Source of the DNA: Phorcus lineatus
Lineage: Eukaryota; Mollusca; Gastropoda; Trochida; Trochidae
Assembly (NCBI GenBank): GCA_921293015.1
Contig: OV121091.1
Coordinates: 32,162,839 to 32,226,838, forward strand
Length of the DNA stretch: 64,000 nucleotides
Direction: 5' to 3'
A model generated the notes under the pieces. The model had not been told where the DNA came from. It saw nothing but the letters and a program-made list of their open reading frames with translations, and made no database searches. Numbering within the stretch: the stretch's first letter is position 1; each line of letters begins with the position of its first letter. Below, piece by piece: positions 12,701 through 64,000 of this stretch. The position numbers were made by a program, and so were the translations under genes.

Positions 12701-15700
12701 CCAATTGCTTCGTGGAACCCTGGGAAATGTCAACGATTAACTGTTTACCGATGAATCTTACTTTGTGGATCATGACGATCATTCAAGAGTTAATTGATGA
12801 GGTTGTAAACATATATTGTATCTGTATCAGTATTTTTGAAATATGATAATTTTAAAAATAAAAAATGTGACCTGATGATGTTGAGGTTAAATACAAAATT
12901 CAAAACATTTCAGAAATAATTAATCTTGTTTTTCCTTTGAGAGAAAATAGGTGCCTAATCTTGTATGTTATCAAAATAAAACAATATAACATCATTTGTT
13001 CAACAAATTTCCTTTCCCTAGCGCACACCCTTAATTATTGTCTTTTCACAGAGGTAGCTCCGTCATTATTACCCATACAACCTCTGTTCTAAAACGGCCT
13101 CTACTCGTTCTTCCGGCAGATTCCCCTGGCGGCAAAATATTGCAACATAAATTACCTTGCAATATTTCAGCCAATGAAAACACGGCATGCATGGATAACA
13201 TATTTGTTGTCACACAGGAATATGCAATGATGCAGTCCTAAAATAAGGCAAAAGTGGTCTTGAAAGAAGACTCAAATTTTAAAGTGTATATTCGAATAAG
13301 ATTTAGCTTTCCGAAAGCATACGGAAATAACTGAAGCGTTTTGAATTATAACTTTTGAAACGGCGTTGCTGATTGGAACCAATCAGGTTTATATATATCT
13401 CTACCGAGAAACGTTCGTATTAACACAGAGGTTGTATAGGAATTTATGAATGATCCATAAGAAGACCTCTCTACTCTAAAATGTTTACTACTACTATTTT
13501 TCAGTCTGTGTTTCTTATTTCAAAATCAAAACAATAAGCAATCATAATACAATATGGTTATTATGGTTGGAAATTTTAATTCTAGATTGTTGAACGACGT
13601 ACTTGGGGAAGTCAACGAAGGATATATAATAACAGAGATGCCGATAAAGGCATCTAGTCTTCCGAAGCGTTCAAAAACTAAATAAGTTCTTTTCCATAAG
13701 GTAAATGTATTTTACGTTACTCAACTTAAGCGATCTCAAGTTGTTATATCAACACCAAAACATCAAACTTGTTACACGAGAGATTGATAATCCTTAGCAA
13801 ATATTCTGGAAAACACTCGAAACGTATGTATGAATGAATTGGACACAAATAACAACAATGTTACATTACCTGGGTTAGCACCGTCCCTAAAGGCCTGGGG
13901 TTGGTTTCTATACGACATGTAATACTCAATGTGCCCCATCTCGTGGTGGATTGTGATCAGGTCTACCATGTTGATGTCAGTGCACATCTTAATCCTGTTT
14001 GATAAAACAGTTCTTATAATAATGTGGATAAGACGTTTTCAAGATACCAATACCTACTCAAAGCGCTTTTACATAATCAACCTGAAGGAATTGTACCTTA
14101 AAAGCAGGTACTGCAAGTAAAGTGAGACTATATAGGTCTGTACAGTCTCTTTTCAGGTACCCCTTGATTTTATACATTAATTAATATCATCAACGTCAAT
14201 TCTTGTGGCATCAACATGAAGATTCACCTCAGCTACTCTTAGTAACACTAGCGAGCAAAGCCAAAACTAACCTGAAATCCTTTCCATTGTAAAAGTCCCA
14301 GGCAGAAGGATGACATACCACGTCACGGTTTGGAGGCTTCCTGATCATTGAATCCGTCCAGAAAGTGTCCACCATCTTGAACAGACCAAGAGACTCGAAG
14401 AATCCCTCAGCTGTTCGAAACATCTTCTCTACAGTGTAGTTCTGAAACATAATTTGACAAAGAGCTCATGGAACCAAAAACACAATGACATGAATAATCA
14501 AACTTGTTCAGCAGTATTGACTACTGTTATTGTGTCCAAACCAAACTTGACGTTTAGAACGTTTCTCTTGATCAAACCCTAACAAACTACCAAGTTATTG
14601 CTGCACAGGGATCAAGTTTACCTGCCATGAAAGTGATCGGAGCTTAGTGCATCAAGGTTACATTTTATCTTTATAAATTCATTTTATTTTCTATAAATTC
14701 TCAAAGATAGTGACTGAACTCTGAACTTCCTGATGCCCATGTTTTAAAAAAGTCCAAAATAGGTCAGTTCAAAAGAATTTTCAACAATGCCGGCGCGGGA
14801 TTTTGATTTTCATTTCTCCCCATTATGCATCCTGATAGGAATATTGCATTCTCAGTGGGTGAGACAGACCTGTTGGTTCATCTGCGGAGTGATGTCCATG
14901 CTGGTCCTGTTTTTGAATGGCTGGACGATGTCAAATATGTTCTCCATTGTCTGACCCCACATGTTACCTGAACGACGTAACATGTAATGTGATAAAAACT
15001 GGGTAAAATAAGTGAAGTGAATTCGAACATTTGAACTATATACTTCAAATACCTCGAATAGCGTTATGCTTCTGACGTAATTTAATTCTTAACGCTAAAT
15101 CGCCTACATGATACGCAGGATATAAAATATATTTAGATACACTGTTTTACAGTTAGGTTTACACCAGGACGTATATGAATATAAATTAAGTGATTCCTAG
15201 ATATTTATTACTCGAACATGTAGGATTTAATATGTATAGGGACATATTAAACTAGTGTAATACGTACCCCCGTCTCAATGGCAAACCAGTCGCGGGAAAA
15301 GTTAGTTTCGGGCCTCTTTCGGCAATTATGCTTAATGTACGTGGCCAAGTAATAAACATAATACTAAACTTTCTACCTGTCAATACTATTTTTTATTAAA
15401 CTCGTTAATGATTAAGTGTCAGATTCGTTTACGCTCGTTGTATATTAAATCATTAACGCGTTTAACAAAATCGTATTGGATGGAAGGTCGTTGTAACCGA
15501 CCTACTTATTATCACTGACCTAGAATGTGAGATGGAATGTGTCCAGTTGAAGGGAACCTCTGAGCTCCGTACTGCTCCATCAACTTCTTCCTTACGTAAG
15601 TGTGGAGTTGTGTATACAAGGGATGTAACTCCACCAACAGACCCTGAATGTCCTCCTGGAAGGTGTCGCTCTCGTAACTGGACCGCCAGTAGTCGCCAGT

Positions 15701-22100: not shown

Positions 22101-25100
22101 GAATAACTAACTGGCAGTTTTTGAATAATGAATAACTAACTGGCAGTTTTGAATAACGAATAACTAACTGGTTAGTTATTCGATATTCAAATAATGAATA
22201 ACTAACTGACAATTTTGAATAACGAATAACTAACTGGTTAGTTATTCGATATTCAAATAATGAATAACCAACTGACAGTTTTTGAATAATGAATAACTAA
22301 CTGGTTAGTTATTCGATATTCAAATAATGAATAACTAACTGGCAGTTTCTGAATAATGAATAACTAACTGGTTAGTTATTCAATATTCAAATAATGAATT
22401 ACTAACTGACAATTTTGAATAACGAATAACTAACTGGTTACTTATTCGATATTCAAATAACGAATAACTAACTGGCAGTTGTTGAATAATGAATAACTAA
22501 CTGGTTACTTATTCGATATTCAAATAATGAATAACTAACTAGCTATTCGTTTTTTGATAAAGCACTGGTGACTCACTTCATGGTCTATTTGCGTATCTTA
22601 AAGTTTAGCATTGGTAACTTTAGGGGGTAAGGGAGGGGTCGGACATGTATCACAGCTTTCTCACTTCCAACAGGTATTACCAGTTACTTGTAGAGAAACA
22701 TCTTTTCAATCCACCCGCTCTCATCGAAACCCACTGCCCTGATCAACGTCCATCCCGGCCCAAAATAAAAATCCTTTTATCCCATTTCATGCAATGTCTA
22801 TTACTTGCATAGACATATATAGAAAGTGCACGTAATGAATACTCAACTGGCAATTTTGAATAACGAATAACTAACTGGTTAGTTATTCGATATTCAAATA
22901 ATGAATAACTAACTGGCAGTTTTTGAATAATGAGTTACTAACTGGTTAGTTATTCGATATTCAAATGATAAACAATTAACTGGCTACTTATTCGTTTTTT
23001 TAATAAGGCACTGATGATTCATTTCATGGTTTATTTTACGTATCTTAAAGTTTAGCATTGGTAACTTTAGGGGGTAAGGGAGAGGTCAGACATGTATCAT
23101 AACTTCTCACTTCCAAAAGGTATTACCAGTTACTTGTAGAGAAACATCTTTTCAATCCACCCGCTCTCATCGAAAGACACTACCCTGATGAACGTCCATC
23201 CCGGCCAAAAATACAAATCCTTTTATCCCATTTCATGTAATGTCTATAATTTGCATAGACATATATAGAAAGTACACGAAATGAATAATCAACTGGCAAT
23301 TTTGAATAACGAATAACTAACTGGTTAGTTATTCGATATTCAAATAATGAATAATTAACTGGCAGTTGTTGAATAATGAATATCTAACTGGTTAGTTATT
23401 CGATATTCAAATAATGAATAACTAACTGACTATTTTGAATAACGAATAACTAACTGGTTAGTTATTTGATAGTCAAATAATGAATAACTAACTGACAATT
23501 TTGAATAACGAAAAACTAACTGGTTAGTTATTCGATATTTGAATAATGAATGACTCACTGACTGTTTTGAATAAAGAATAACGAACTAAATAGCTAGTTA
23601 TTTGTCTTTTGAATAAGGCACTGATAGAGAAACAAGTTTTCCTTCCACACTGCTCCCATCCAAACCACTCTCAATTCCAGATATATAGTTGTTCTCATTT
23701 TAGGTCAATCCTACAAATTACACAAACATAGAGAAAATTGGATTGTTTAGACAGGTATCGGTTCTTTTTTACTTTCAACGATTAAGTGCCTTGTTTGCGT
23801 ATGTCGTTTTAATGTTTTTGTGCATGACTTGTCCTTATTGTTCCTCAGAATTCAATGCAAAACAGTTAACATGAATATTATCAGCACTTACACATAAGCT
23901 TCCTATAAGACCAAAACTAATAGCACTTTACTTAAACAGTTATTATATCAAGAGAGAAGCCAAATATCACCTGCTTCTGTAAAAAACGAATAAATATTTT
24001 ATTACTTCGTTCTTTGAGGGTATTTGTCAGTTAAGGATGATAAAGTTCACATAATACCATACGTATCTATCTATGTTGAAGTTGATGTGAACCTCAAGAT
24101 ACAATACGCCCTACCTTTGAGTGTTATTACTAAGTATATATCTGATCTGACCAAAGTAAGTAAAGTGCCACTATAACCTTAGATATGGTGTCAACACATT
24201 TTAAACATTTGTCGTTTTGATAACATGTAGTGACATCTATTGAAACTGAAACGGACTGATCTTTGTTGACCTAAGCAGCACCATACGAGGATGTACATAC
24301 TCCATACATGCGATACAAATAAACGGTTTGAATGCAATTATATAATACAGTTATTATACAAATCTAAATATGAGTAAAGCATATTCTTTAAGAAGCTTTT
24401 AAAAGTTGTAGAGTTAAGATAAAACAAAGTTTATGGATAAGGATAACCATCTTTTTAGTGCAACAAAAGTGACGTTTCATCGTTTAAACAAAGTAGTCAT
24501 ATTTTGGTTTAACCAAAAAAGTATATAATGCTATAATTAGTGATAATGTTCAATAAATAAGTTCAAAGTACTCTTCCATCACTGAGTATCACCTTATTTT
24601 CCGTGATTATTATTCTATTTCTCAAGCACATGTCTTTACTACTAACCCCTCGTCCATCCGCGTGATAATTTTCTCCAATAATATATTTTAATATCACACG
24701 TAAAATTAATTGAAATAGAGAAGTTGACTATCTGTAAATTTGAATTTCTTTCAAGAAAAGGGATGGTATAAGTAAATATGCAAATAAACCATAGGAACAT
24801 GATCTGTGATGATATGATCCGATTAAAGACCTATTTAACATAACATTACATTCAAATGGTGTGTTGGGGTTCGAGTTTAACATGTTTACCTACTATTTAA
24901 CAACTGAAGGTGATGGTAAAGCATGAAGGGAGATGTGATTGGAACATAGATAGTACTCTCTGCTCGCCCGCGTCAGTGTCAAGGATAGACTACAGTTGAT
25001 TCTTATAGCATCAGCATGCACTATTAATCAGAATTAAGAACAATATGATTGGCGAAGCGGTTAAATGTTGGGAAAATGAATAATACTGCAAACAGAGGTT

Positions 25101-28100
25101 AGCTTTGGAAGATTAACTAAACGGATTAATGACCACTAGCTAGTAGGCAGTCTATATGCCTCAAGCACATTATTTTGCAGTTTACAGCAGTGCAGACATA
25201 ATTCACAAAACTTTCATGTACACAAATTAACGATGAAATGAGTCAACAGAACATGATTCAAAAAACGAAAAACTCGCCCGTTTCTACATCATTATTAGAA
25301 GAATAAATAACTAACCAACTAGTGATTTATTATTCAAAACTGGCAGTTAGTTATTAATTACGTTAACTTTCTGTTTGTGTTCATGTACAAAATAGAAATT
25401 GCATGAAATGGGATGAAAGGTTATATACTTTAGTCTAGGGTGGACATTGATCCTGTTTTGGATGCGGGTGGGGCGGAGGGTTGTTGAAAGTTAGTTATTC
25501 ATTATTCAAAAACTGCCAGTTAGTTATTCATTATTTGAATATCAAATAACTAACCAGTTAGTTATTCGTTATTCAAAACTGCCAGTTAGTTATTCATTAC
25601 GTGTACTGCCAGTTAGTTATTCGTTATTTGTATATCGAATAACTAACCAGTTATTATTCGTTAACTGGTTAGTTATTCGTTATTCAAAATTGCCAGTTGA
25701 GTATTCTTTACGTGTACTTTCTATATATGTCTATGCAAGTTATAGACATTGCATGAAATGGGATAAAAGGGTTTGTATTTTGGGCCGGGATGGACGTTGA
25801 TCAGGGTAGTGTGATTCGATGGGAGCGAGTGGATTGAAAAGATGTTTCTCTACAAGTGACTGGTAATACCTTTTGGAAGTGAGAAAGCTGTGATACATGT
25901 CCGACCCCTCCCTTACCCCCTAAAGTTACCAATGCTAAACTTTAAGATACGCAAATAGACCATGAAGTGAGTCACAAGTGCCTTATCAAAAAACGAACAA
26001 CTAGCTAGTTAGTTATTCATTATTTGAATATCGAATAAGTAACCAGTTAGTTATTTATTATTCAACAACTGCCAGTTAGTTATTCGTTATTTGAATATAG
26101 AATAAGAAACCAGTTAGTAATTCGTTATTCAAAATTGTCAGTTAGTTATTCATTATTTGAATATCGAATAAGTAACCAGTTAGTTATTCGTTATTCAAAA
26201 ACTGCCAGTTAGTTATTCATTATTTGAATATTGAATAACTAACCAGTTAGTTATTCATTATTCAAAAACTGTCAGTTAGTTATTCATTATTTGAATATCG
26301 AATAACTAACCAGTTAGTTATTCGTTATTCAAAATTGTCAGTTAGTTATTCATTATTTGAATATCGAATAAGTAATCAGTTAGTTATTCGTTATTCAAAA
26401 ACTGCCAGTTAGTTATTCATTATTTGAATATTGAATAACTAACCAGTTAGTTATTCATTATTCAAAAACTGCCAGTTAGTTATTCATTATTTGAATATCG
26501 AATAACTAACCAGTTAGTTATTCGTTATTCAAAAACTGCCAGTTAGTTATTCATTATTTGAATATTGAATAACTAACCAGTTAGTTATTCATTATTCAAA
26601 AACTGTCAGTTAGTTATTCATTATTTGAATATCGAATAACTAACCAGTTAGTTATTCGTTATTCAAAATTGTCAGTTAGTTATTCATTATTTGAATATCG
26701 AATAAGTAATCAGTTAGTTATTCGTTATTCAAAAACTGCCAGTTAGTTATTCATTATTTGAATATTGAATAACTAACCAGTTAGTTATTCATTATTCAAA
26801 AACTGCCAGTTAGTTATTCATTATTTGAATATCGAATAACTAACCAGTTAGTTATTCGTTATTCAAAATTGTCAGTTAGTTATTCATTATTTGAATATCG
26901 AATAAGTAATCAGTTAGTTATTCGTTATTCAAAAACTGCCAGTTAGTTATTCATTATTTGAATATTGAATAACTAACCAGTTAGTTATTCATTATTCAAA
27001 AACTGCCAGTTAGTTATTCATTATTTGAATATCGAATAACTAACCAGTTAGTTATTCGTTATGTGAATAATGAATAACTAATAACTAAAAACTTGCTAGC
27101 TTCAGCCTGCCATTATTATACTGTAAATATAATCAATTAGTGAATAACACATATACTTTGATACAAAGATATCACCCATTTTGTTCTCACGTAAGGAAAT
27201 AATATGTAAACTGAAACATGTTTAGTTAAGCCTTTTTCAACAAAACATATTTCGCTTTTGTGCAGATCTGACTTCAACTATATCCCTGAAAGACTCCGAC
27301 CGTCTTTACTCTTTCATTATTGATTGCAAGTGAACTTTAAAGAATAAGAAGAATTTTTTTGCATCGAGAGAGAGCTACAACATTCGCACATGCCCTTCTA
27401 ATCTGAGCCTTGATTTTCGAAGCTCTCATAGCACTAAAATTGTCCTAAGTACCTAAATGTAACATAAGCCAATAACTATCTCGGCACTAAGAGAGCTTTG
27501 AAAATCTATGCCCTGAGCCATAATCTGGAAACTGATCACCATGCATTAAATCAAATGCCAAGATGCCTACCGACAATATGAAATGTTTCATCTCATTTGC
27601 TTTTCTAAATGAAAGTTCTACAACAAAGATATAAATTTCAATAAATCAATAAAAACGGGTGTTCTGACTTTCCCCACCTGGATTGGCCCCACTCCTGAAA
27701 GCATGGGGTTGCCATTTGTACTGCATATAGTACTGTATGTGCCCCATTTCGTGGTGAATCACAATCAGGTCTTCCATGGTGATGTCGGTGCACATCTTGA
27801 TTCTATGGTAAAATATCACAAAAATGATAGAATTTGTGTTCGTTTATTCATAAGCACAATAATTCCGATGCCTTAATTACTTAAATAAGAGACCTAAAAC
27901 ACGAGGAACTATATGTAAATATTTCGTTCGAAACCATACTCCATCAACAGCGATGACAATATCTTGTTCGTTTAACCCTCCTAGTTGAAAAGTCGAAGGT
28001 CGAGAAAACAACCTCACCTCTCACCATTATGTATGTGGCTAGGTCCATCAGACTCTCTCAATACGCATCATCCACAAACACGACCGTGACCTCCTCATGG

Positions 28101-37100: not shown

Positions 37101-40100
37101 ACGGGTGATCCATTAACTAAAGGATCAGGCAAAGATAAATGAACATCGATGTTACGGTTAAATAAAGGAATGTGTAGAAGACCTTGGTCGAGCTAACGTA
37201 AAACGAGGGCTCCTTTAAATTATGAAAAACATTTAAATCACCGTCATCATCATCCAAGTTCTTGATGAGTCCAATCTTGTGAAGATGTTTGGGTGTCGCA
37301 ACAGAGAGAGCCATTGTATCACCGATAGCCTCATGGAAGCCTGTCAAACAAAAAAGGGAAGTCTATAATAATAGATGTGACAGGACAGGATAAAACCGAT
37401 GAAATAGTAGGATATCACCAACTTTTTACCGAATAACTGAATTCAATACCATATAAGAGTACTGAGCTTTATATGAGCTGATACTGATTACGAAAATACC
37501 TCTTTCAATATCTTGATTGCAATAAATATAATGTTGATATCTTGAAACACTTCTTCTCAATGTAAGGTTGTAAGGTACGACTTTTGAATTTAAAAAAGAG
37601 TGTACGTTTTATTTCCATACCAATTGTAGGTGTGTTCGTATGCATTGTTTTTTTAAAATCAGAATTCAAGAAATGTACATTTTCTGACATGATCTTTCCA
37701 GATAAACAATTTCAGATAAATTAGATCCTTATCAATCGAATATTGATATTTTAAAAAAAAATTATAAAATGAAAATTTTAAATGTAATATTTTCTTCTTG
37801 TATTGTTACTATCATGAGTACTAGTCAAGAAAGGAATTTTCCGTTTAACAAAATTCAATTTATTGACGTCTGAAATTTAATTTCATTGTTAACAGCTAAT
37901 AACACATTATTATTACAGAATTTGGCGATGTACATATATTTTGCAATGGCGTTTAGAAGAAAGATTGTATTAGAAAATAACTGATAAGTGACTTAATACT
38001 CATTATACATGTAATGTACTACAGGCCTGTGGCCTCTTCAGTACTGAATACAGATTGATTGATTGACGTCTGATGGGTAACAAACAAATTCTCCAGCAGA
38101 TACCAAGATTATCAATTCTAAAACAGTCATCGACGTAATGAGATTGCTCTTTTACTGAATATAACATTGAACCGTCTGCGAGGCCACAGTTAGTTTTGGT
38201 AATGCATTTGGAGAAGAGGTCTTGCAAAAACTGGGACCTTTCATGTTTCAGATGGGTTGCAGATCATAAGAAGATATCGATAAAATTGACATTGCGAACT
38301 TTCTTCCCACCACATATACACCCCATGACATATTGTGTATCTACTATAAAGGTACATTTGAGCAATTTTATAACGCATGGTCACCTGGATTTGCTCCTCC
38401 TTTCAGTATGGTGGGCAGGTCGTTGTACTGCAGGTAATACTGTATGTGCCCCATCTCGTGGTGGATTGTGATCAGGTCCTCCATAGTAATGTCGGTGCAC
38501 ATCTTGATTCTATGGTCAAATAATTTTGTCATGTTAATCTTTCAGTATGACTGACACTTGTAGAAACATGGTACATGTATCGATCTACTGAGGATAGTGT
38601 ATCAACTCTTCATGGTCTCGTGGTGAATCACAACATGTCTCCCTTTGTATCTCGTGAGTTTAAATATTTTTTCATTTTTCAAACAACATTGCCAGCAGTC
38701 TTTATATCATACAAAGGTCAAAAAATCGAAATTGTATAAGATTCAAGCTCAATGGAGAAAGTACGTTCATTAGCAAAATATGATCTCTTGACTTGTCTTG
38801 TACATTGACGTCTAAATGCGCTTTTACTTGTTGACATGTATATCTTGTTCTTTAATCATTTCACCGATTGAGGTACATGGTTCTGAGCCTGACAGACACC
38901 CCACGAGTACCTGATAGACACCCCATGAGTACCTGACAGACACCCCGTAAGTACCTGACAGACAACCCCATGAGTATCTGACAGACACCCCATGAGTACC
39001 TGACAGACACCCCATGAGTACCTGACAGACACCCCATGAGTACCTAACAGAAGTACCTGAAGTCCTTTCGGTTGGAGAAGTCCCAGGCTGAAGCGTGACA
39101 CACCACGTCTCGGCCATCTGTCGGCCTCTTCATCATCGACTTGTCCCAGAAGGTTTGAGGCATCCCCTTCAGCCCCAGGGACAAGTAGAAACTCTCCGCA
39201 GTTTTAAACATTTGCAGTACTGTGTAATTCTGTGAAATCGTAATAGTTTTGTAAATATGTAGTGATGCAAAGTATCAAAGAGAATCAATGATAATATTGA
39301 TAAAATTTATGTAGAATTCTCTTCAAAGCAATCATACTAAACCTTTCTGCTTGCTTTAACAAAGCAACGGAAGACTACATAGTACTGAGATTACTCATGA
39401 GTTGTTAATTCCGTACATTAGTCAGAAATAATGAAAATTACACATAATCGATTAACTCTTGTACACAAATCAAGACAAAAAATGTGGACTTTAACACTCA
39501 ATGTAATTCTAAATTCGAAAACGTTGTCTTCTATAGAAAATCATTAACTATAAAGTAAAATTACATTTCATCAGACACGATATAATGACTCTTGTAGGAG
39601 TCCCACGACAGGTGGGCGTTTGTCTGATTTATTGATTCGAAAATATACGTATTCAAATTAAAACACTTTGGATTTGACAGTGTGAAAAATTCTAGATGAT
39701 ATCAGAAGCTTAAAACCTGTGAATTGTGTAATTGAAAAATCAGAGTTTAACAAATGAGTGTTCTTTGAGGACTTTCAAGGAGATGAAAATTAAATGGAGA
39801 TTTTCTCCCATTTGGACGTTTCTTTTTGTTTTGAATCGTCATCAAAGTCGAATGAAGAAGCGGACACTTTTTTATAAAGTTTTTCTTGTGCTAAATATAT
39901 CATGCATTACACCAATAACAACCTTTCGTCTAAGGAGACAGTATATAATTTTAAAGCAAAAGGCGAGGAATTGTTAAACGAAATGTACCTGTGCTTTCAT
40001 CTCAGGTGTGACGTCAACAGCAGACTTTCCCTTAAAAGGCTTGAGAATGTCAAAAATGTTTGTCCATTCCTGTGCCCACATATTGCCTTTAAGAAGTAGA

Positions 40101-49100: not shown

Positions 49101-52100
49101 TGCCGGCAATTCATAATTGAAAAATTCCATCCAATGTAACCTCTTCTTCTTGTCATACAGTCATACAGCTATGCAAGGATACCATTTCAAAGGTTGGTAA
49201 AACAATATATCAAATATAAAATATTCTCGTCAATTATAGAAAACATGACATTGGCCAAGAACATAAATCCAAAATGAACCAGACGGACTCACCGTAAATC
49301 CCACCATTTTTTGTTGTAATCCTCGGGAGGAGTTTCCCCACTGAACACGCTCCATCGCCATTGGTCAATCAGGTAACCGAACGGGAGGAAGGCGATCTTA
49401 CCAAGTGCAATTTTCATAAGAAAATTTATTTCACTCTCTGAAATGGATATTTGAGTACAAGGAGTGTGCATTAACGGATAAGTGCTCATCGTACTGTGAA
49501 GGATTTATACATATCAAACTTTTCACACTTATCGCAATATATATCAATCATAAGTACCCTTTCAGCACCTAAATCTGATTATCAGAGGCAGATTTCAGTG
49601 TATAAACTAAAAAAAAACTTTTGTTGACCATGATAGCAGAAGTACATGTATAAGAATAATATCATAATTAGACTTGAACAATGATATAATTCTTATACAT
49701 GATAACAATGATATATTATGAAGATACCACTTCAATATGTCTGAAAGAAAACGCCAATATATATCAAACTTACCAATGTCGTCATCACCTGGTGCCAGAA
49801 GACCAACACGGCGTAGATGTTTAGGCGTGGAAACAGACAGCGCCATTGTGTCCCCTATTGCCTCGTGGAAACCTAGCGTATGATGTATGTATATATAATG
49901 GATTGATGCCATGTTACGAACGTATTTCAGTACTCGAGAGCAATTCTACTGTTCATTGTTGTTCCGGTTGATAGGATTGATAGATTAAAAGGTGTTCTAG
50001 GATTAATTGCCAAACTTGAAAGGTAATTCCGGGTCGATAAAATACCATAAAATATTTATTTTTCTTTGAAGGATGATTCTTTAAGGGTAGGCTAATGTTC
50101 CTGAAGTTTTCTTTGAAGGATGATTCTTTAAGGGTAGGCTAATGTTCCTGAAGTTTTCTTTCAGGATGATTCTTTAAGGGCCGGGTAGGCTAATGTTCCT
50201 GAAGTTTTCTTTGAAGGATGATTCTTTTAAGGGTAGGCTAATGTTCCTGTTATTGAAAAATAGTATGGTACATAAGATAGATTTAAAACGATGAAAACCC
50301 TTTTAAAATAAGTTTAAAAAAAAGTTATGACAGACATGATATGCATGTATGTTTTGATGTATACAATATTTGCATCTTTATCCTTTTACGAGTACTTCAA
50401 AAGCTACTATCAGAATATCTTTTTGAAGGCATTGGTTACAATTTGCGCCTGTAAAATTTAGTAAAAGTTAAAAATAGTTGTGAGTCACAAACTGAAAATG
50501 TTTCGATTAGTAGTTATAAAGGAAATTCAACTGAGAAAATCATAATTCAAATTCTAAATTCTATAAAGAAGATGTTAGATTTTAAAATGATTTTTACTGC
50601 AATTCAAATTGATGTAAAGATCAACGTTGCAAGATATCATAAATATTTCGAATAACATCAAACCCTATTCTCCTGAATATTACTGTTTAGTGCTAAGATC
50701 ACTTAATTTCAATGTACAAGACATTTAAAATGTTATTTTTTAAATCGTAATCAAGGATTAATTCTTATCATTGCAAGCACCCACAAATGTATTTTGTGAA
50801 ATATACAATCTTACATTAACAATGCAAAAGATTGAACTACCCCTAAATCAGAATATGAGAAATAAATCAACCAACTTTTCATGATTTTGGATACCCGTAG
50901 GGTGTTCTAGCATTGTGAAATCCAAGTTACCGTGGTTTGCCCCTCCCCTGAAGAGAATGGGCTGATCTTTGTACTGCAGGTAGTACTCGATGTGCCCCAT
51001 CTCGTGGTGAATTGTAATAAGGTCCTCCATCGTGATGTCAGTGCACATCTTGATCCTAACAAAACATTGGAACATAGGTCAGCGTGTTACAATATTTACC
51101 AGGATTTGCTCCGCTTCTGAAGATGATGGGTTGATTCTTGTATTGCAAGAAATATTCAACGTGGCCCATTTCATGGTGGATTGTGATCAGGTCCTCCATG
51201 GTTATGTCTGTACACATCTTGATCCTGGTCATAGACATCATTCAATGAAAGAATTCAATTTTCAATAAACGTACATTTAGGTTTCATCATGTGAACTTTG
51301 ACAGTGCCTTTAAAAAAGCGTTGTGACTTGGAAGAGTAACTTTTTTAAGTATTAAAATAGTGTAATTTTACCAATGACTACAGACTCTCAAATGAATCAT
51401 TTAGCAAATCGGGTCAAAGTAATTTAAAGGTATGAAGTGTCGATTAAGATAAAAAAAACAGACACTGAAACTATTAAATATTCACATTTAATATTGAAAA
51501 CGTATCAAAATCGGGTTGAAGATCAATTTCAGTTTATAGAGTTTGAAAGGTCATATAAATAGTATTCTTGTAAATGTGTGATTTCAGCTCGGGTACATAT
51601 CTCATAAGGGTGCTGTTAATTCTTTTATCATGAAACCAATAACTGATATGCATTTTGCATTTTTGGATGAATAAGGGAGATGTTTTCATAAACATGAAAA
51701 TGTCGGGGTTTCTTTCTAAAGTCATTCTAGAGTACGTGCGATGCATATGGTTAGAACGCGAATATCAATTAACATTTTTCATCAATCATTCTTCATTTTT
51801 GTTATTCAATTACCATTTGGTGTCTGATCTACTCATGTAAATAACAAGTACGTTGTAGATAAGCAGACACAGAGAAGACAAAAGTGACTACAGCCTTCAA
51901 AACATAATACGAGTATGTAGCTTATCATATAAATGTTCATTTTCAGAAGTATGGTTCTTTTATTTCTTTTCCATCGATTTAAAAAATCAGAAGAGTAAAT
52001 AGAAAATGCCGAGGAATTCATCAAAGAATCACTGACAAGTTCAACACATCCACATCAGTAACATCTATACCATTTTTCTAAGAATTCAGAAAATTACTAA

Positions 52101-55100
52101 ATCTTTCTGATATCTCATAAACCCAAAACAAGGTGAAAAAGACGAGTGTATAATTTTTTCCATGTCTGAAAGGTCTTAGTAGTATTTAAGCTAAAGGTTA
52201 GAGATCTGATTTGAAAACATTTAATCTTTATGATTTCCAATATCACTAGCAGGAACATACATGAGGATCTTGGGTAATAATTTTGAAATTTAAGCCAAGG
52301 CTTAACACATAAAATTATCCACATTTTCTTCTTCACTGCTTTGTTAACTTTGGTAAAAAATAACAAATTGTGAACCTAAAATCTTTCTGATTCCCCATAT
52401 CCCAAGCCGAGGCGTAACACACGACGTCTCTTCCATCAGCTGGTTTCTCTAACATGGAGAAGTTCCAGAAGGTGTCCGGCATTGGAGTAAGTCCTATGGA
52501 CTTGTAGAAGTCTTCTGCTGTCCGAAACATCCGCTCTACCGTGAAGTTCTGGTGAAAAGGTAATGATAAAGCTGTTTAACGTCTAACTTAGGTTATGTGT
52601 GTCTTGATGGTTAGATTTACACCTGTCACAATTGTTGTTAATATTAATGCATTAACGTTCAAATGAACTTCATCATGCCTCTACATATACTGCAAATAAA
52701 AGCAGGAAGACGAGGAAAAAAAACGAGGAAAATTTACTCACAGAATCAGATTATATGTCAGGTGCTGTTTAACCCCTTTCAATACTAACATAAATGCAGT
52801 TTTTAATGAAATCTATTTTGTATCTAGCCACTAGAGAAGTGGTACCTTAGCTTTCATTGTTGGTGTAATGTCGACACTCTGCTTGTGTTTGTAAGGCTGC
52901 ATTATACTGTAGGTGTTGTCCCAGGTTTGGGCCCATAAATTACCTACAGAGGTAGAAATACACATCAATAAATGTGATCACGTATCTCGCTGTAAATGGT
53001 GCATTCTATTACATTTATTTCGATACAGACATATCGATTCATCAAATATCATTGAACATATCTTAAGCAAACCAAATTCTCGTTCCATACCTACCCTTTA
53101 TCCATTTTTCATTAGCTCTTGACAATGTTTATTATCTAAGTTTTGCAAGGATATTATGTCTTTTTAACATAATCAAGTTTTGTCGTCACGGTAAAATACA
53201 TTAATTCAACAGTTTAGCATGTTGGAGCGGTATTCATATAATTTGTTTTTACGAAGGATGATCACAATCGTAATCTTTTACGAGGGTTATGAACATCAAA
53301 ATCATATTTTCTTGTCTTTACCCTAAACATTCAATCTCAAAGGGACCATTGGTTAAAACCTAAGACTATTGAATACCAGTCAAGTGTCGGTAGACCAGAC
53401 TCCTGGGAATATCAAGGATGAGCTTACCTAAGATATGTGCAGGAATGTGTCCAGTGACTGGAAACTTGTCCTTGCCGTACACCTTCTTGAGTTCCCTTCT
53501 GACGTAAGTGTGCAGCTGTTGGTACAGAGGCTTCAGCTGCTCCAGAAGCTGCTCCAGATCTTTCTGAAAGTTGTCGCTCTCATACCATGATCTCCAGTAT
53601 TCGCCCGTGTCGTTGTGACCTAGAACAAAAACACATCTCTATTAATGGCGATGCTATCTTAGAACATTCTCTATATAACGTTTTTTCCCAGACATGTTTC
53701 AAGAGATCGAATAGCTTCCCCATTGAATGATTGGAGCGACGCTGTTGGACGTGATAGAAGGGCTTATTTTCTATTCAAGTATACCTATTTAATAGCCGCT
53801 TTGATGCATTCCTATTTAGATTCATATTACCCCAGAATAATTCAATAATTGAATATTATCATTGACAAGGCATATTTCACAGCAGTATCACGTGGTTGAA
53901 TTGTCATTCGTACCCAAAGGTCCGAATGTTTGAACTTTAAATCATTTATTCAATGATGATGTCACAGTAAGTTTGGCTTCTGGCGCCACATCGTTTACTA
54001 TCGGTATTATGGTGAATATGTTCATTACCTATAATCTGTATTTATTTGGACACGAACGTTAAAGGCGTTACATGTAGTGGCGAATAATTATATTTAGTCT
54101 AGGAAATCGGTTTTCTTTTACCACCGTCATTACACTGCGTAATATCATTGCTTTACTATATAATAACCATAAGTTATTATGGATTGTCAACTTCTTTATC
54201 CATAGATACATATATTGTCATTATTTTTGTAATACAACTTCAGAATGCCTCTCAAGCAATGTAAGGTAACATGCCACGTTGCACCATATGATAAACATGT
54301 ACCTTCATATATTTGTCAACAAGAGCAAAGTTATCAATGCCACCAACACACATCGACAGTACTCGACCTTCTATGCTCAGAGCCTCGTTACTCAGTTCCA
54401 CCATTTCTGTATACATGTCCCTCATTTGTTTCCCAGTAACGTCTCTCCACCCCTTCCAGATCGCCTCTAGTTCCTCGTAGTTTCTAGAGTTGGCGAACTT
54501 CCTGGCAACCCCCGGCTCCAGCTGCAGACACTCGTCCGGCTTGTCAGGATCCAGACATACTTTGCCTTTGCTGAATATTCCTTCCATCTTTGAAACAACT
54601 TCTCGCAACTGAGGAAAAACATATGCTTGAATTTATGATATCTAATTGTTCGGTATTTGAACTGCCGTTGGTCCTTCATAGCCAATATTTACTACTGATT
54701 TAAATGAAAAGAAACCATCTGAATGAAAATCATTTCAATAATGTATTTTATGATCGAATCAAAAGATATATTTTCAGTTGTTTGTCTTTCCATAAAGTAT
54801 CAAACTTCAAGCCCTGACGTGATGTAATGTGACGTACCCTCCGTAGCTTTGCCTCATCCTTAAGTGCGTCTGTACCCAAGGTCTGCACGCTTTCAATCTG
54901 ACGCTTCAGCAGCGGATCCTCGATCCCGCTGACGTCGAATATACTGGCATTGGCTGCAGCCTCCTTAGCGAACTTGGATTCCACAAGACTCATCTCCACC
55001 TGTTACCATATAAAGGATTACAAAGGATTTAAAGAGAATGGCCTGTAAATTCTGAACTGAAAAAGTCGTACATGCATGCATTCCTAACAGTCCATATGCG

Positions 55101-56315: not shown

Positions 56316-56639
56316 CTGTGAAAGGTAGTTTGTAGCATACAATAAAATCTCGACATAGAGGTCTTATAGAAGTGAATTGTATTCAAAGAATCTTTTAACA
56401 GACATATTGTTACTTAAACGTAAAGATCGATTTCATCCTATTTCTTTGACATATTAAAAGCACTATAGCACACCCTTTTTTCGTTTTATAGACTTACGCG
56501 TAGATTACGGTCATCTTTTGATGAAAGAATCTATCAGCCTCAAAGTACTCTTTCATATGGTACATTTGGAACAAATGTGCTTATTCAAATTTTAAAGATA
56601 TTTAATAAAACTCAAAATAGGAAAAGGACCGTAACATTA

Positions 56640-56945
56640 ATCTGTCGGCCAACCAGGAACTAAAGCGAAACCTATGGATTTCTTTCCCTTGGCATTGCTC
56701 GGGGCCGCCGCTACAAAAGTCGCTGCAGACAAAACTCGGTCGGGACCAAAATGGCGGTTAATGTTTATGTTTATGGTCGAAGTACGCATCCCTGCAAAAT
56801 ATTCGCCGAATACAAATGCCTTGGGACGAGATGCTGCTCAATAAGGACGAGGTAAACAACGGTGTATTTAGGAAGACGGCAATGCAACGCTGGATCGAAG
56901 CGAGAGGCACGATGTCGATGATGAGAGACGAAATGTTAGCAGGTG
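56640..56945 (+). pseudogene. GC-rich conserved segment of the right transposon copy: possible 5' exon or promoter
   Basis: Counterpart of 6915-7305 in opposite orientation. The [20 protein letters not shown] frame is kept, with R for T in MMTDEM and 12 bp missing before gtgagc. Conservation above that of neighbouring transposon DNA suggests it once had a coding or promoter role. The product is not recognised. Confidence 0.35.
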
Positions 56946-57201
56946 AGCATAACTTCAATGTATCAGTCAATCGTTCATTCACTATGTCTTCCTTGTATGT
57001 CATCGCACAATGAATTAATTTCGTTCTCATGATGAAAAGTATTTTCATTATTTTTTTTCTGAAATACGAGATCCACGAAGATGAAACACTTCGTCATATT
57101 TATTTATTATGAGGTTCAGAATTTTTAATGTAAATCAGAAAATAAAAATCGTTTTTTTAAAAATCAGGCTTGATTTGTGTACACGAAGCCTATGACATTA
57201 A

Positions 57202-57681
57202 GGGGCCACAGAGTATGTTGTTGGAGTCAAATATGCCAAACTTCATAAATAGTGTTATTCTATCGAGAAGTGGTGGTTGTTTCCAAAAATTAGCCTATTA
57301 GTGCTTATGAGTTCATTAAAGTGACAATAAAAAAAGGTTAAAGTCTAGATTTGTGATCGAAAACCGGACAGTGACGCGCGTCAATGACTCAAACGTAATT
57401 TTGGAAACTTATTTACAGCAGATTCAAATGTAAATATGGATTGGTATTATTAATTAGGACTTTTAACTAATATATATGTAAAATGTACGCAGAATTTCGA
57501 CATCCTAACATTTATATGGCCGTTTTTCATTTATCATTTAAAACATAAAAATAGCACAATTTGGGAATTTGGGAGATGAAGAAGCGAGTTAGGAAGGCGA
57601 TTTGAACTTAATTGATGACATATAGTAATTTGGCTCTTGTTTAAGGAACATAAAAAATCCTAAAACATACTCTGTGTCACT
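57202..57681. mobile_element. 480-bp TTAA MITE nested in the right transposon copy
   Basis: The element is flanked by TTAA at 57198-57201 and 57682-57685. Ends are GGGGCCACAGAGTATG and, reversed, AGTGACACAGAGTATG. The left transposon copy has the uninterrupted site (one TTAA, near 6668-6671), which proves an insertion. The interior contains the family's ATCGAAAACCGGACAGTG core. Confidence 0.92.
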
Positions 57682-57874
57682 TTAAAAGGCACACTATCTT
57701 TGCTCCGATGTCCGTATCCCTACATATATACTAATATATACTATATATACAAATTACTGTTTATATTATTTATTACTGTATCTATCATTGTTTTTTCAGT
57801 GCCAAATAGTCAATAATGCTATTTTCACTACAAATATGAATTATTCCAAATGCTCGTCATTGCAATAAGTCAAT

Positions 57875-58201
57875 CAGGGCTCCAGATAAGATGCGTATCT
57901 GCGTATAATACGCTCATGTAATTCAGATATACGCATTAAAAATGAAATCAATGAGTGACAGATACGCTCAACTTTCCCAGCATAGGAGTAAGATATTTGT
58001 TTACATGAGTGATCAAACTAAAGTGTCAAAATAAAGTTTCATTTGTACGTGTCTGATCTTTACATCTCGAATAGTAGCCAACTTGATGCCAACCTGTATG
58101 AAAACAAAGATTACCAAGTTATGTATTCTATCAAAAAGAAACCTCTGGTTCATTTTGAGGAGTGAATTACCCCTAAGTCCAAATAATTATCTGGAGCCCT
58201 G
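57875..58201. mobile_element. 327-bp MITE with CAGGGCTCC ends nested in the right transposon copy
   Basis: Perfect short inverted ends CAGGGCTCCAGATAA and TTATCTGGAGCCCTG. Direct repeat GTCAAT at 57869-57874 and 58202-58207. The left transposon copy has this target once, uninterrupted (near 6440). CAGGG ends recall hAT elements, but hAT duplications are usually 8 bp and this one is 6, so the superfamily is left open. Confidence 0.88.
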
Positions 58202-61200
58202 GTCAATTTTATTGATTGTTTTGCTTAAACTGTTTTCCCTTGAATAAGCATCCCTCTGTCTATTTTATCAGACAACCTTCAGCCCCCGGGATTGAATCGA
58301 GACTCCTAGTCGATTAAAAACAAGACTCTTTTCATATTTTGGGAGAAAAATCATACAGGACTACAAAACAATAGGTATGGAACTCTTAGAAACTGATTTG
58401 TTATGGGTTTTGATTGATTGGCTTAGGCCATGGCATTTTATCTAGCGTCTGTTCATCTGTTCATTTAATTTTTTTCAACGGAACATTTGACTCTGGAAAT
58501 CTGAAATCTGGTTATAACGACTCTTAATTAGGTCCTTTAGGATCTTGATTTATAGATTTGTTTATCCCTTGACTCCTTACAATGGCCACAACCTAAACCT
58601 ATTTCCATCCTCATCTACATTATTTTTATCATGTTCTTCAGAAGAAAGATATTTTAGAATCTTGAAACCTTGTGTGTAGATTCCTTGGTTGATTTTTGTT
58701 CATAGATTTGGTGACCATGTGACCTTAATAAGCGTTGCTGAGAGCACACCCCAAAACTATATTTTGCTCTTTTTTAAAAGGCCTAGGAAGGTCAAATCTT
58801 GTGTACCGACTCCCAAGCTCAAATAAATTGAGTTGGTGGTCCTATTGCAGCTCATATGGTGATCCTGTGACCATTAATGAAAGATACCTTTATGAGCTAT
58901 AGCGCTGATTGCATTACCTTAACTCCTTAAAAGACTCTCCACATGTGTCAATTCTCAATTTTACTTATTTTTATGAATATAAGTTTCTTTTACAAACTAT
59001 GTGCAACCGAAGAACTACCCTCAGAAATATGATTTCAAGATTAGCAATGGTAATGCATAGGATTTCTTGTATTTCTGAAATGAATAGCAACAAAGTGCCA
59101 GCTTTTTAAAGCTTAAGTTATGTTAAAGGTGCTATCAACAATTTCAGTAACAGCATCCAAAGAAAATTGTTTTCTTTAAAGAGTCTTAAATTGTTACATT
59201 TTTATCTGACATTAGATCTTGTTTTGTCAACAGGAATGATGCCTTTCTGAGACATGACTAGTCTCAGTGCACATCATAGAAATAATAATTTGAACGCGAA
59301 GCAATGGACGTAGTGTCAGAAGTGTCACTTTGGGTATGTTAACATTGTTGAGGTTGTGTTTTAATAGCTTGTGTGGAATTTCATTTTTGTCATTCTGTGT
59401 CAGATACAATTGCCAAATGTTAGAAATTAATTTCTGTGGGCCATTCAGGCATTGTACACAAATTTTACTACTTGGCTAGTAAAAGAAATGTCAAATAAAT
59501 TTTATAATAATAACTGAATAAGTTCATATGAGATGCAAACTCTTTATGGTCTGAATGCATGTAAAGTTTAATGACAAGTTCCTTTTTCTCTATGCACAGA
59601 ACTGATTGACAAGAATTGGACCTGGACAACCATTGCTCAATTTCTTCTACTAGAATGTTATCAACTTCAGAGCTTTAGTAAGTTAACAATTGCAGAAAGA
59701 GTATTGATTTATTCTATTATTGTCAAATGGATTTAATTATAATGAAGTAACAATACTAAGTCAATTCTGAATAATACTGACTTGTCATGCTGTATATTCC
59801 CCAGCTTTTATTTACTTGGAGGTATCTAGATTTCAATGATTCTGTCAGTCTGAAATAGTTTCCTGATTGTAATTCAAAATGTATTTGATATGATTTTTTT
59901 TTTATCAGTGTCAACTACTTGATGACATTTATTCTTTTAGGAGTTGCAACTTGCAACTTTGATGGGTTATGGCCAAAAAGATATACATTAATTTTAAATT
60001 CCCTTTAGCTGTTGAAATTACCAATGTGATGTAGCTTTTTAGGTAAAAAAACCCCCAGAATTTGACATTAAAGCTATCTGCCCTCTTCATTGATTACAAA
60101 AGGTTCATATCAATGCATGCCATGTAAAAGTGATCGAACTACAGGGAGTTAATATAACTGTCCGCACTATCACCTTAATTGCCAGATCACATTTCCATCT
60201 TAAAATTCTAAATGCATTATTTGTATTTCACAGGTTAACAGTGACTGCATAATCTTTTCCCGAAGAAGGATGAGCACGCCAAGCACCATATGATAATGAA
60301 GACAAAACCTTTTATGTGAAAATATGCAGAATATACATGTTCATTGATATTAGTATTCTTAATTCTGAATCTTCTTTTTATCAAATCTGGCTGGCCGGTT
60401 GGGTTCATGGCATGGCATGGCAACTGGTGTCTGTCTGTCCGTCCATACATTAGTCCGTAAATATTTCGCTCTTTGTACTTCTCATGAACCCATTGAAAAC
60501 CGAGCTGAAAATGTGTAAACAGGTACCTTGGCCTATGGGAATATAAATTGTAGATTTTGTGTTTCTGTGGTCCCAACTTAAGAGCACAGGGGCAACTCCC
60601 TAAAGTCAATATTTTCACCAAAGCCCTAGAAACATAAAATGTAGTGTCAAGACACTTCCCTCATGAACATTATATTCATAATACTGTATTTGGTGACCCT
60701 GTAGCCCAATAAGGGCCACATCAACCACAAAATCTATTTTCATCTTCTTTACCAGGAGCATTTATCCTATAAAGAGAAAGATGGTTTACAGACCTCTTGC
60801 TTATTGAAATAATTGCTCTTGCCACACCTTGACATTTATAAGAACCACATCAACCACATTATTTACCTGTTGAAATTGGGTCTTTTCTTTTTTGGGTAAT
60901 GGTATATAATATTTCAGGTTTTGATGACCCTATGACCCTACAAATAGTGCCTCTTTTCCGCCTTATTATATAAATTGTATGAATTCTTATGTACTAAAGA
61001 GCCAATGGATCTATTTTTGAGTTCTTCCAAAGAACCGCTTGGTTTTCAGAGCTGAAATCATCTGTACAGGGTTCGCTTTGTAGTCATTAAGGAATACAAA
61101 GGATTTCTATGAATAATAACGATAATGAATATACGTGATATGCTATCTCCCTTTAAAATCATTGTTAGCAAAATGTAACATTTTCAAGTTTTATTGCCTC

Positions 61201-62126
61201 CAAATGTAAGAATGTAATATGTTTTCATTATATTTTTTCATGAACCTATTGATCCATTGGCACTAGGCAACCCAAATCTTGTGTACAGGTCCTTTAGCCA
61301 ATTGGGAGAATAAATTGAAGATTTGGTGATTCTTTCGCCCCAGTGAGGGCCTTGGGAGTCATCTCCTCAAGATCCAAAAGCCCATAAAGACAGAAATCTT
61401 GTGCATAGGTACCCTGGCCAAGGGTGATTATGATTTGTGGATTTTGATGACTCTATGGCCCCAATGAGGGTCATAGAAAAGTATTTCATATTCTCCAGAC
61501 CCAAAAGCCCTTGAAGGTTGAAATCTTGTGCACATGTACCTTGCATTGTAAACTTTATGACCCACCTGAGGGCCATGGGGCCATGCCCTATATTTCCTAT
61601 TTGTATTATTTCATTCTTGTGCTCCGGAAATAAGAGTGTAGCAGGGGCACTAGTTAAGAGTGTTTAACCCTCGGGGCTGTGATAAAATACTGAATGTAAA
61701 CAAGTAGGATGGCGCATGAAATTTCTGATGAGGTAAATAACACTTCTGTGTAGCATAAATGATAAATTTTTTTACAAGACTCTGAAATTCTTATACAGGA
61801 CCTGGAGGGGCAGAAGAGAGGAAGGGGTTGGAGAGGTGACTAGGAAAAACACCTATTAACTAGTATAAGTATTTAAATACATTTGATATGCAAGAGAAAA
61901 GTAATTGTTTTTCCTTTCTCTTACATTAACTTGCTTAGATCAAAGGTCCTGTTTTGAACCATGCTATTTCAGTTAATAAATATTATCACAAGAGAGACAT
62001 TTATTGTTTTGTTTTTCTTACTTCAATTTAGTTAAAGATTACTCTCAATGTCATTTGCAATCTGGCATGTATAGTGATCAATAAGTTTATTATGATAAAG
62101 TAAATAGTGTTTATGTTTTAAGATAT

Positions 62127-62578
62127 TTATTTCAAATGGCAGGAAGGGAGGAGGGGTGGCCTTATATGAGGTTTGAAAAGAAAATCAACTGCAAGCTTTG
62201 ACATCCAGTAGTGGTGTTCTGATGTCAGTTGTGATATGCTTTTAAAAAATGCAAGAAGGTACTGTGCAACTGAGTCAACTTTGTAGGTTATGTCCTGATT
62301 TCCCCACAAGTTTGGTCTGGTCGAGCATTGTCAGCAAAGGATTTCTTCACCAAAGCCAATTGCCACATGAGCTCAATGTCCTGACTATCTCTCATATATG
62401 ATGACAGTAATTTATAAAGGATTTGGTATTCACCCTTCTTCAAATTCAGGCCATTGGTCAAACCATTAGCCATTCTTTGACTTCTCTCATTAAACCAGTC
62501 ATACAGGACTTTTTGATGGACGCTACGAATTGTATACAATCCACATAAATATGAACTAGAATTGTCTGTTTGTCTCAA
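62127..62578 (-). pseudogene. Broken coding remnant inside the right transposon copy
   Basis: Two overlapping frames on the minus strand: one includes [20 protein letters not shown] and [20 protein letters not shown], then ends at TCGEIRT; the next begins around [20 protein letters not shown]. The left copy (about 1850-2260, plus strand) has the same words ([26 protein letters not shown]) but with several stops. The regular composition and shared words suggest decayed protein sequence, perhaps transposase or a captured gene. I do not recognise the family. Confidence 0.4.
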
Positions 62579-64000
62579 AACAAATAGCCTTTTTAGAGAA
62601 ATTTAAAATAACATCCAAAACGGATGTCTGCATTATTTATTTCGCCCAGCCAATTAGTAAGCATTCTCAACGTATTTCTCAAATACATGCTAATTGTTCT
62701 TGATTTATTGAGAACGTAAAGTGCCAGTTTGGGAAAGTCAAGTCACTTTGGTTGGTGAATAATAAAAGTAGGAAAATATTCCCAACACCCCTCCAGGAAC
62801 ACTACTACTTTAGAATGCTGAAATCGTATGTAGGCGTATTTTGAGAAGCAAGTTATAATTGCATGTTTTGTGATGGCTCATTGGATATCATTACCTAAGT
62901 CTTCAATCTAAGATAAAAGCAAAAATAATGAAAAAACTGATGAACTACAAAGACAGCAGCTATATTAAAACATTTCTCAGTTTGCATACTCAAGAATTTG
63001 GAGAACACATCATCTCAAGATTGTCATTGCCAACAAATAATCAGCTAATTTAGAGTGCCGTTATGAATTCACAACATAAATACTTACAGGACATGAGATA
63101 TACTTTCAAACGAAGGGTGCTTTCATCTTACGTATTGCTGATTGTAACATCAATTATAACATGCACTAATAGGTTAATATTTCGACATCACGTAGGTTTT
63201 TCATTACTATTCCATCTTCTGTGAAAACCTATTACAATGTTCGAGATGGTAACGGTCAGACCAGTTTATATATCTTTGGTAATGTAATATAACAACGAAA
63301 TACTTCATGGGGATTTTAAAGCACATCATTCACATATAAATTTTACAAATTTTCGGCCTTGTGATTTTTAAGTGTTCAGTAGGCCCTACTTGCCTATTTG
63401 TTCTTGGCAGTTCCAAAATGAGAAAGAGTTTGTAATTATAAGCAATTAAAAAAATCATGTTTCAGTTTCGGTAGGGCATCGTGTTGCATATTTCATCAAA
63501 ACTATAACATCAATTATAAGATGAATTTCTTGTAAACAGCGATTCAACAAGTGTCGACGATCAACTGATTCACACAAAACGATACGCGCAATGATTGCAA
63601 ACCAGTTTGGTATTCATCACAACACCGCGTGCGACACTTTCCGATGTGCGGAGCAATTGTTTACATTCCATATATGGCAAATGTAGGCGTATTCCGAGCA
63701 ATCCGCTACGATGGTTTCATTAACGAATGCAGGTTCATTCTAACGAATAATAAGTATTTTATTTCATCAATAGGAAGCTTAAGTGACTATATATACCCTC
63801 GTAGGCCTTAAATAAGCTAGTTTGAGCCCGAAAAACGTGCACTAGTGCCTTTAATATTGCTATAACCAATCGCGACCACGGATATAAGGGAGAATAATAA
63901 ATAGGTCAAAATTATTTTGAAAAAAACATATGATACGAAGCAATTTTAATTTATCAAATAATTCAAAACTGTAACTATAGATTGCTAATATCTTTCTAAA

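Follow-up and report, generated by a model that had tools for sequence, protein, structure and literature searches.

Exon 6 of domain B in an ACE (peptidase M2) gene of Phorcus lineatus is present as two adjacent copies, for which productive mutually exclusive splicing is predicted and is probably the correct explanation. As a tentative extension, to which a little less than an even chance is given, splicing may switch domain B between two S2 pockets and so provide two peptidase specificities according to tissue or stage. Mutually exclusive exons had already been proposed in a sequence-only reading of this DNA; it is the proposal that agrees best with the frame and splice sites, with the length of the gap and with the selection on both copies, and it stays a prediction.

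The doubled exon 6 and its gene

The window, which is the whole stretch of 64,000 nucleotides analysed (positions 32162839-32226838 of the 49-Mb contig C17), carries repeated ACE domains on its minus strand. The last exons of domain A lie inside the window and its earlier exons just outside, followed by domains B, C, D and E; we infer that domains A to E, at least five in number, belong to one transcript. Exon numbers 3 to 10 were assigned per domain from the pattern common to the domains. Domains B to E share one exon chain, in which exon 6, the exon that encodes HEMGH, always measures 125 nt. The zinc ligands of the M2 family are present, with HHEMGH in both copies of exon 6 and the downstream Glu as FHEA in the common exon 7. 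Joined with exons 5 and 7, the copy 1 and copy 2 forms match Pfam Peptidase_M2 (PF01401) with E = 5.4e-68 and 2e-67, respectively; bit scores, reported for three of the five exon 5-6-7 joins, are 230.5 for B1, 228.6 for B2 and 233.8 for domain C, against a cut-off of 23. The residues Q281, K511, H513, Y520 and Y523, in a provisional numbering, seem present in the exon 4, 9 and 10 peptides. Searches for tRNA and Rfam matches gave none within the window.

Table 1. Location of the exons and of the gap discussed in the text; positions are those of the window, except where contig C17 or locus L058 is named
Feature	Position	Strand	Description
Domain B exon 6 copy 1 (B1)	51100..51224	-	125 nt, 41 residues
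Domain B exon 6 copy 2 (B2)	50931..51055	-	125 nt, 41 residues
Gap between copies	51056..51099	-	44 nt, GT...AG
Domain B exon 5	52376..52548	-	upstream exon common to both copies
Domain B exon 7	49774..49872	-	downstream exon common to both copies; FHEA = third zinc ligand
Domain C exon 6	38385..38509	-	single copy, comparison
Domain D exon 6	27678..27802	-	single copy, comparison
Domain E exon 6	13870..13994	-	single copy, comparison
Exon 7 pair of plus-strand gene	C17:32128121-32128219, 32128275-32128373 (L058 5122-5220, 5276-5374)	+	

Each of the two copies in domain B is preceded by AG and followed by GT with identical phases, and the gap between them starts with GTAAAT and finishes with TTGTTAG. 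The earlier description of two HHEMGH exons of 125 nt, 44 bp apart and each with splice sites, was exact to the base. A repeat search joins the copies in a repeat of 131 nt at 78% identity, and the pair shows homology, adjacency, equal length (125/125) and equal phase together. Twelve zinc-site exons were found in the genome, which comprises about 958 Mb in 74 contigs, and only that of domain B is doubled. A scan of the whole window for remnants of a further zinc-site exon beside domains C, D and E gave none: scores are 229-239 for the five known exons and 19 for the best of all other stretches.

Exon 5 ends two bases into a codon and exon 7 starts with two, so that the length of exon 6 must be 2 modulo 3, as 125 is. 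Either B1 alone or B2 alone joins exon 5 to exon 7 in an open frame, while inclusion of both copies, or skipping of both, leads to a stop in exon 7, and a gap left unspliced leads to a stop at its own last codon (open frame 51059-51241). The full protein is thus obtained from single inclusion only; that double inclusion breaks the frame had been claimed before, and the computed translation agrees.

Several other features of the gene were observed. Exon 9 of domain D (window 20513-20506, minus strand) has an apparent GC donor, CAG|GCAAGT, which gives the standard 99-nt exon, or else a GT donor 6 bases downstream. An exon of domain E (window 15869-16835, minus strand) contains an in-frame 42-nt tandem repeat of about 23 copies, encoding 14-residue units. 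In domain D, the long intron that separates exon 6 from exon 7 holds two 67-nt tandem arrays (22039-23587 and 25489-27062) of one family in opposite orientations, and a 47-nt tandem repeat (window 50060-50249) lies within the intron 3' of exon 6 copy 2. A large inverted repeat pairs window positions about 507-7430 (plus strand) with about 56460-63800 (minus strand), its arms being the minus-strand domain A region and a convergent plus-strand ACE gene. The open-frame fragments of the two arms match nearly throughout, and the introns match too; this looks like a fairly recent inverted duplication.

Divergence of the two exon pairs

B1 and B2 differ at 29 of 125 bases and at 6 of 41 residues (35/41 identical). 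By the NG86 method, 22.5 synonymous sites carry 22.5 changes and 100.5 nonsynonymous sites carry 6.5 (Fisher p = 4e-19). None of 20,000 trials in which 29 substitutions were placed at random on copy 1 gave six or fewer amino-acid changes; the mean was 19.7 and the lowest count 12, and 64% of the trials produced a stop. Among the degenerate codons that specify the same residue in both copies, 12 of 32 are identical, compared with 14.5 expected from independent draws from the ACE gene's own codon usage, and synonymous sites are therefore saturated. Selection favouring synonymous difference between the copies was considered and set aside, as p = 0.23 points to ordinary saturation. Polarised by domains C, D and E, the codons with synonymous differences are derived in B1 in 11 cases and in B2 in 7, with 2 unassignable; the six codons with nonsynonymous differences, treated in the same way, are derived in B1 in 2 cases and unassignable in 4. 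Both copies of exon 6 are under purifying selection, and the pair is old; the substitution pattern indicates that each copy has long been maintained as a coding exon. Trees of the 12 zinc-site exons did not group B1 with B2 and are too weak to establish sisterhood or origin, so that derivation of one copy from the other and import from another domain could not be separated by them. Relatives were looked for in viral contigs by means of a pattern; 5 stretches matched, and none of them encodes a relative.

The window is part of an ACE cluster (C17:32083000-32256838) that spans 174 kb and has 11 zinc-site exons distributed over the two strands. A further ACE domain lies 6 Mb away (C17:26071205, L065), with GCTTCC, not GT, after the usual end of the zinc exon. 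Mapping of exons 3-10 across the 174 kb of the cluster identified a second tandem pair, in which exon 7 (the FHEA exon, 99 nt) of a plus-strand ACE gene is doubled with a gap of 55 nt. The second copy reads GFHEPAGDFLVLS. The two copies are identical at 85 of 99 bases; of the changes between them 5 are synonymous and 9, among them FHEA to FHEP, are nonsynonymous. This pair is younger than the exon 6 pair and weakly constrained, and the two pairs differ in their ratio of synonymous to nonsynonymous changes (Fisher p = 0.018). Tandem exon duplication thus does occur in the ACE family, and the exon 6 pair is the retained one; the 55-nt gap of the exon 7 pair also cautions against reading function from a short gap by itself. 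Instead of CHASAWDF, the plus-strand gene that carries the exon 7 pair has CHATASDF.

The short gap and the residues exchanged

The 44-nt gap is the shortest among 68 ACE introns between exons 3 and 10 in the cluster, a count that omits the 55-nt gap of the exon 7 pair. The next shortest are 81, 87 and 118 nt, and the fifth-shortest is 123 nt, or 129 nt if a different donor is used. For about 15 chaperonin introns from other parts of the genome, sized by eye from adjacent profile matches, the length is about 108 nt or more. Copy 1 and copy 2 have donors of 5.1 and 6.1 bits, which rank 29th and 25th among 34 in this gene, and acceptors of 3.9 and 3.6 bits, which rank 30th and 31st among 34; low and similar scores in both copies would suit regulated exons, on a comparison of 34 sites. 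The weakness of both acceptors is also a point against the preferred explanation. The exon 5 donor, GTTCAC, is likewise weak within the gene (rank 31/34). Fourteen splicing-regulator or branch-type motifs were counted in the two flanking introns, without notable enrichment. Local RNA structure was also considered as a device for exclusivity and was discarded: a hairpin spans the gap, and its stability is ordinary. Folding around the exon pair gives z = -1.39 (361 nt) and z = -1.40 (67 nt) with local pairing, and of 1131 GC-matched windows 8.8% reach the stability of the 67-nt stretch.

CTGAC is the sole motif of the YTNAY type within 60 nt upstream of the copy-2 acceptor; its A lies 24 nt upstream of that acceptor and at a distance of about 20 nt from the donor of copy 1, as a motif match only. 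Any branch point inside the gap is necessarily less than 50 nt from the 5' splice site of copy 1. Introns of about 45 nt are spliced in some animals, which is a point against the preferred explanation. A minimum distance of about 50 nt between 5' splice site and branch point has been proposed, and in OGDH the exclusivity of exons 4a and 4b is achieved through branch points under this threshold (PMC7969005). From the gap length and this threshold, steric exclusion is taken as the likely device, and exclusivity is probably enforced by the over-short intron. Simultaneous binding of U1 at the copy-1 5' splice site and of U2 at a branch point in the gap would be impossible, so that copy 1 would not be joined to copy 2. 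One copy of exon 6 would then enter each transcript, and mis-spliced products with early stops would be expected to be degraded.

Residues are given in testis-ACE (tACE) numbering, anchored on HHEMGH with its last His as 387. Copy 1 and copy 2 differ at V/I388, F/Y391, N/D396, I/L400, S/G403 and P/H407, and positions 376, 379 and 380 (S1') and the HEMGH residues are unchanged. The sequence-only reading had correctly noted V/I, F/Y, N/D and P/H and had missed the exchanges at 400 and 403. Three of the six differing residues (391, 403 and 407) occupy positions of the S2 subsite, which in the C-domain comprises A356, D358, Y360, H387, F391, Y394, R402, E403, G404, P407, H410, E411 and R522 (PMC11880972). 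The selectivity of RXP407 for the N-domain involves contacts with Tyr369 (F391) and Arg381 (E403) (PMC11880972), and the S2 differences tabulated at 391 and 403 are F and T in Drosophila AnCE, F and E in the C-domain, and Y and R in the N-domain (PMC12025037, Table 3). Positions 391 and 403 are thus the two S2 positions that separate the human N- and C-domains, and the exon swap alters both. Exon 6 includes seven S2 positions, and the probability that six differences change three of them is p = 0.051 over 41 sites, or p = 0.031 over the 25 sites variable among the 10 other zinc-site exons; this modest enrichment is suggestive, not strong. Together with the change at both human-domain positions, it lends support, at a modest p, to the earlier idea that the swap replaces a substrate-facing wall of the active site.

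All six differing sites vary also among the other 10 zinc-site exons, and at 391 and 403 neither copy goes beyond the residues seen in the other ACE domains of the animal. Position 407 is P in 10 of the 12 zinc-site exons, A in one, and H only in copy 2. Among 44 bacterial sequences it is D in 43 and G in one, with no H; this prokaryotic M2 set, employed for site variability only, had 45 loci, of which L045 fell below the score filter. His407 of copy 2 is located four residues N-terminal of the third zinc ligand, and being singular among the compared sequences it could mean that copy 2 is impaired. Exon 5 of domain B has Tyr at 353 (CYASAWD), where the other exon-5 peptides compared have His (8/8). 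In human ACE, His353 contacts the inhibitor backbone (PMC11880972). With Tyr353, catalysis by domain B may be unusual in either form, and the domain seems to be a specialised site with predicted activity.

The two products would differ in the S2 subsite of domain B, with F391, S403 and P407 in one and Y391, G403 and H407 in the other. Such a change would shift the preference for the residue at P2, the second position N-terminal to the cleaved bond, while zinc binding, S1' and the other domains would be the same in both products.

Alternatives and known systems

The preferred explanation and its rivals partly overlap, and their probabilities do not add up to one. Both copies might be exclusive while their differences represent neutral drift at variable sites, giving enzymes that are alike and a choice that matters for regulation only. 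This is somewhat unlikely; the variation of the six sites in the other 10 zinc-site exons and the borderline S2 enrichment agree with it, but drift does not readily account for the joint change of both S2 positions that distinguish the human domains, nor for a residue at 407 that is absent from the other 11 exons and from the 44 bacterial sequences. Improbable, too, is a non-steric use of both copies, in which the joining of copy 1 to copy 2 makes a degraded off-switch and single-copy messages accumulate. The frameshift to a stop in exon 7 is what such a switch needs, and the gap does offer a GT and an AG, with a branch-like motif whose distance to the acceptor is normal, yet the gap is 37 nt below the next shortest of the 68 ACE introns.

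There is a similarly small probability that a single copy is used, with no splicing choice, and that chance or gene conversion has preserved the other as a spare. The unique H407 of copy 2 would suit a spare, and the exon 7 pair shows unconstrained duplicates to arise in the family. Synonymous saturation with 35 of 41 residues kept, and phases and splice sites intact in both copies, argue against it, and recent gene conversion between the copies is contradicted by the same saturation. An assembly artefact, or collapsed alleles, is scarcely credible in view of 23% base divergence, flanks that are dissimilar beyond the 131-nt repeat, and the 49-Mb contig.

Mutually exclusive exons that rewrite an active site are known from other enzymes, and their occurrence in ACE appears unreported in the open-access literature searched. 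No report of mutually exclusive or duplicated ACE exons came up in full-text searches of open-access papers, in line with the earlier remark that no description of such a pair in ACE was known. If mutually exclusive splicing of the exon 6 pair is true, a peptidase joins the enzymes whose active sites are rewritten in this way. It would also be a naturally occurring exchange, inside a single domain, of the residues on which designers of domain-selective ACE drugs rely, and splice forms six residues apart would be a clean natural test of 391, 403 and 407 in peptide preference. With the younger, less constrained exon 7 pair in the same cluster, an early stage of the process could be set against a late one.

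Among known systems, the nearest precedent is the pair of exons 6a and 6e of coq-2 in nematodes; these exons, with similar pairs in annelids and molluscs, are adjacent, mutually exclusive and of equal length (134 nt), and their choice, which controls rhodoquinone synthesis, changes two key residues close to the substrates in the active site (PMC7434440). That enzyme is a prenyltransferase, and its exon choice is demonstrated by RNA and exon deletion and occurs in several phyla, whereas the ACE pair is a prediction from a single genome. Exons 4a and 4b of vertebrate OGDH resemble the predicted ACE pair in having a branch point too close to the upstream 5' splice site; the intron between them measures 118-131 nt in birds and mammals, compared with the 44-nt ACE gap, in which the branch point is a motif match (PMC7969005). 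Branch-point-enforced exclusivity is likewise described for exons 2 and 3 of alpha-tropomyosin (cited in PMC2991248). Oyster CgACE is also an invertebrate ACE, with demonstrated activity, but it has one active site, and the word exon is absent from the available text of its paper (PMC3235092). A likeness in the residues themselves is seen in human somatic ACE, in which Phe/Tyr391 is accompanied by a change at 403 in S2 (PMC11880972, PMC12025037). In human somatic ACE these alternatives belong to two domains of one polypeptide and the residues at 403 are E and R, whereas here they would belong to two predicted splice forms of a single domain, with S and G at 403.
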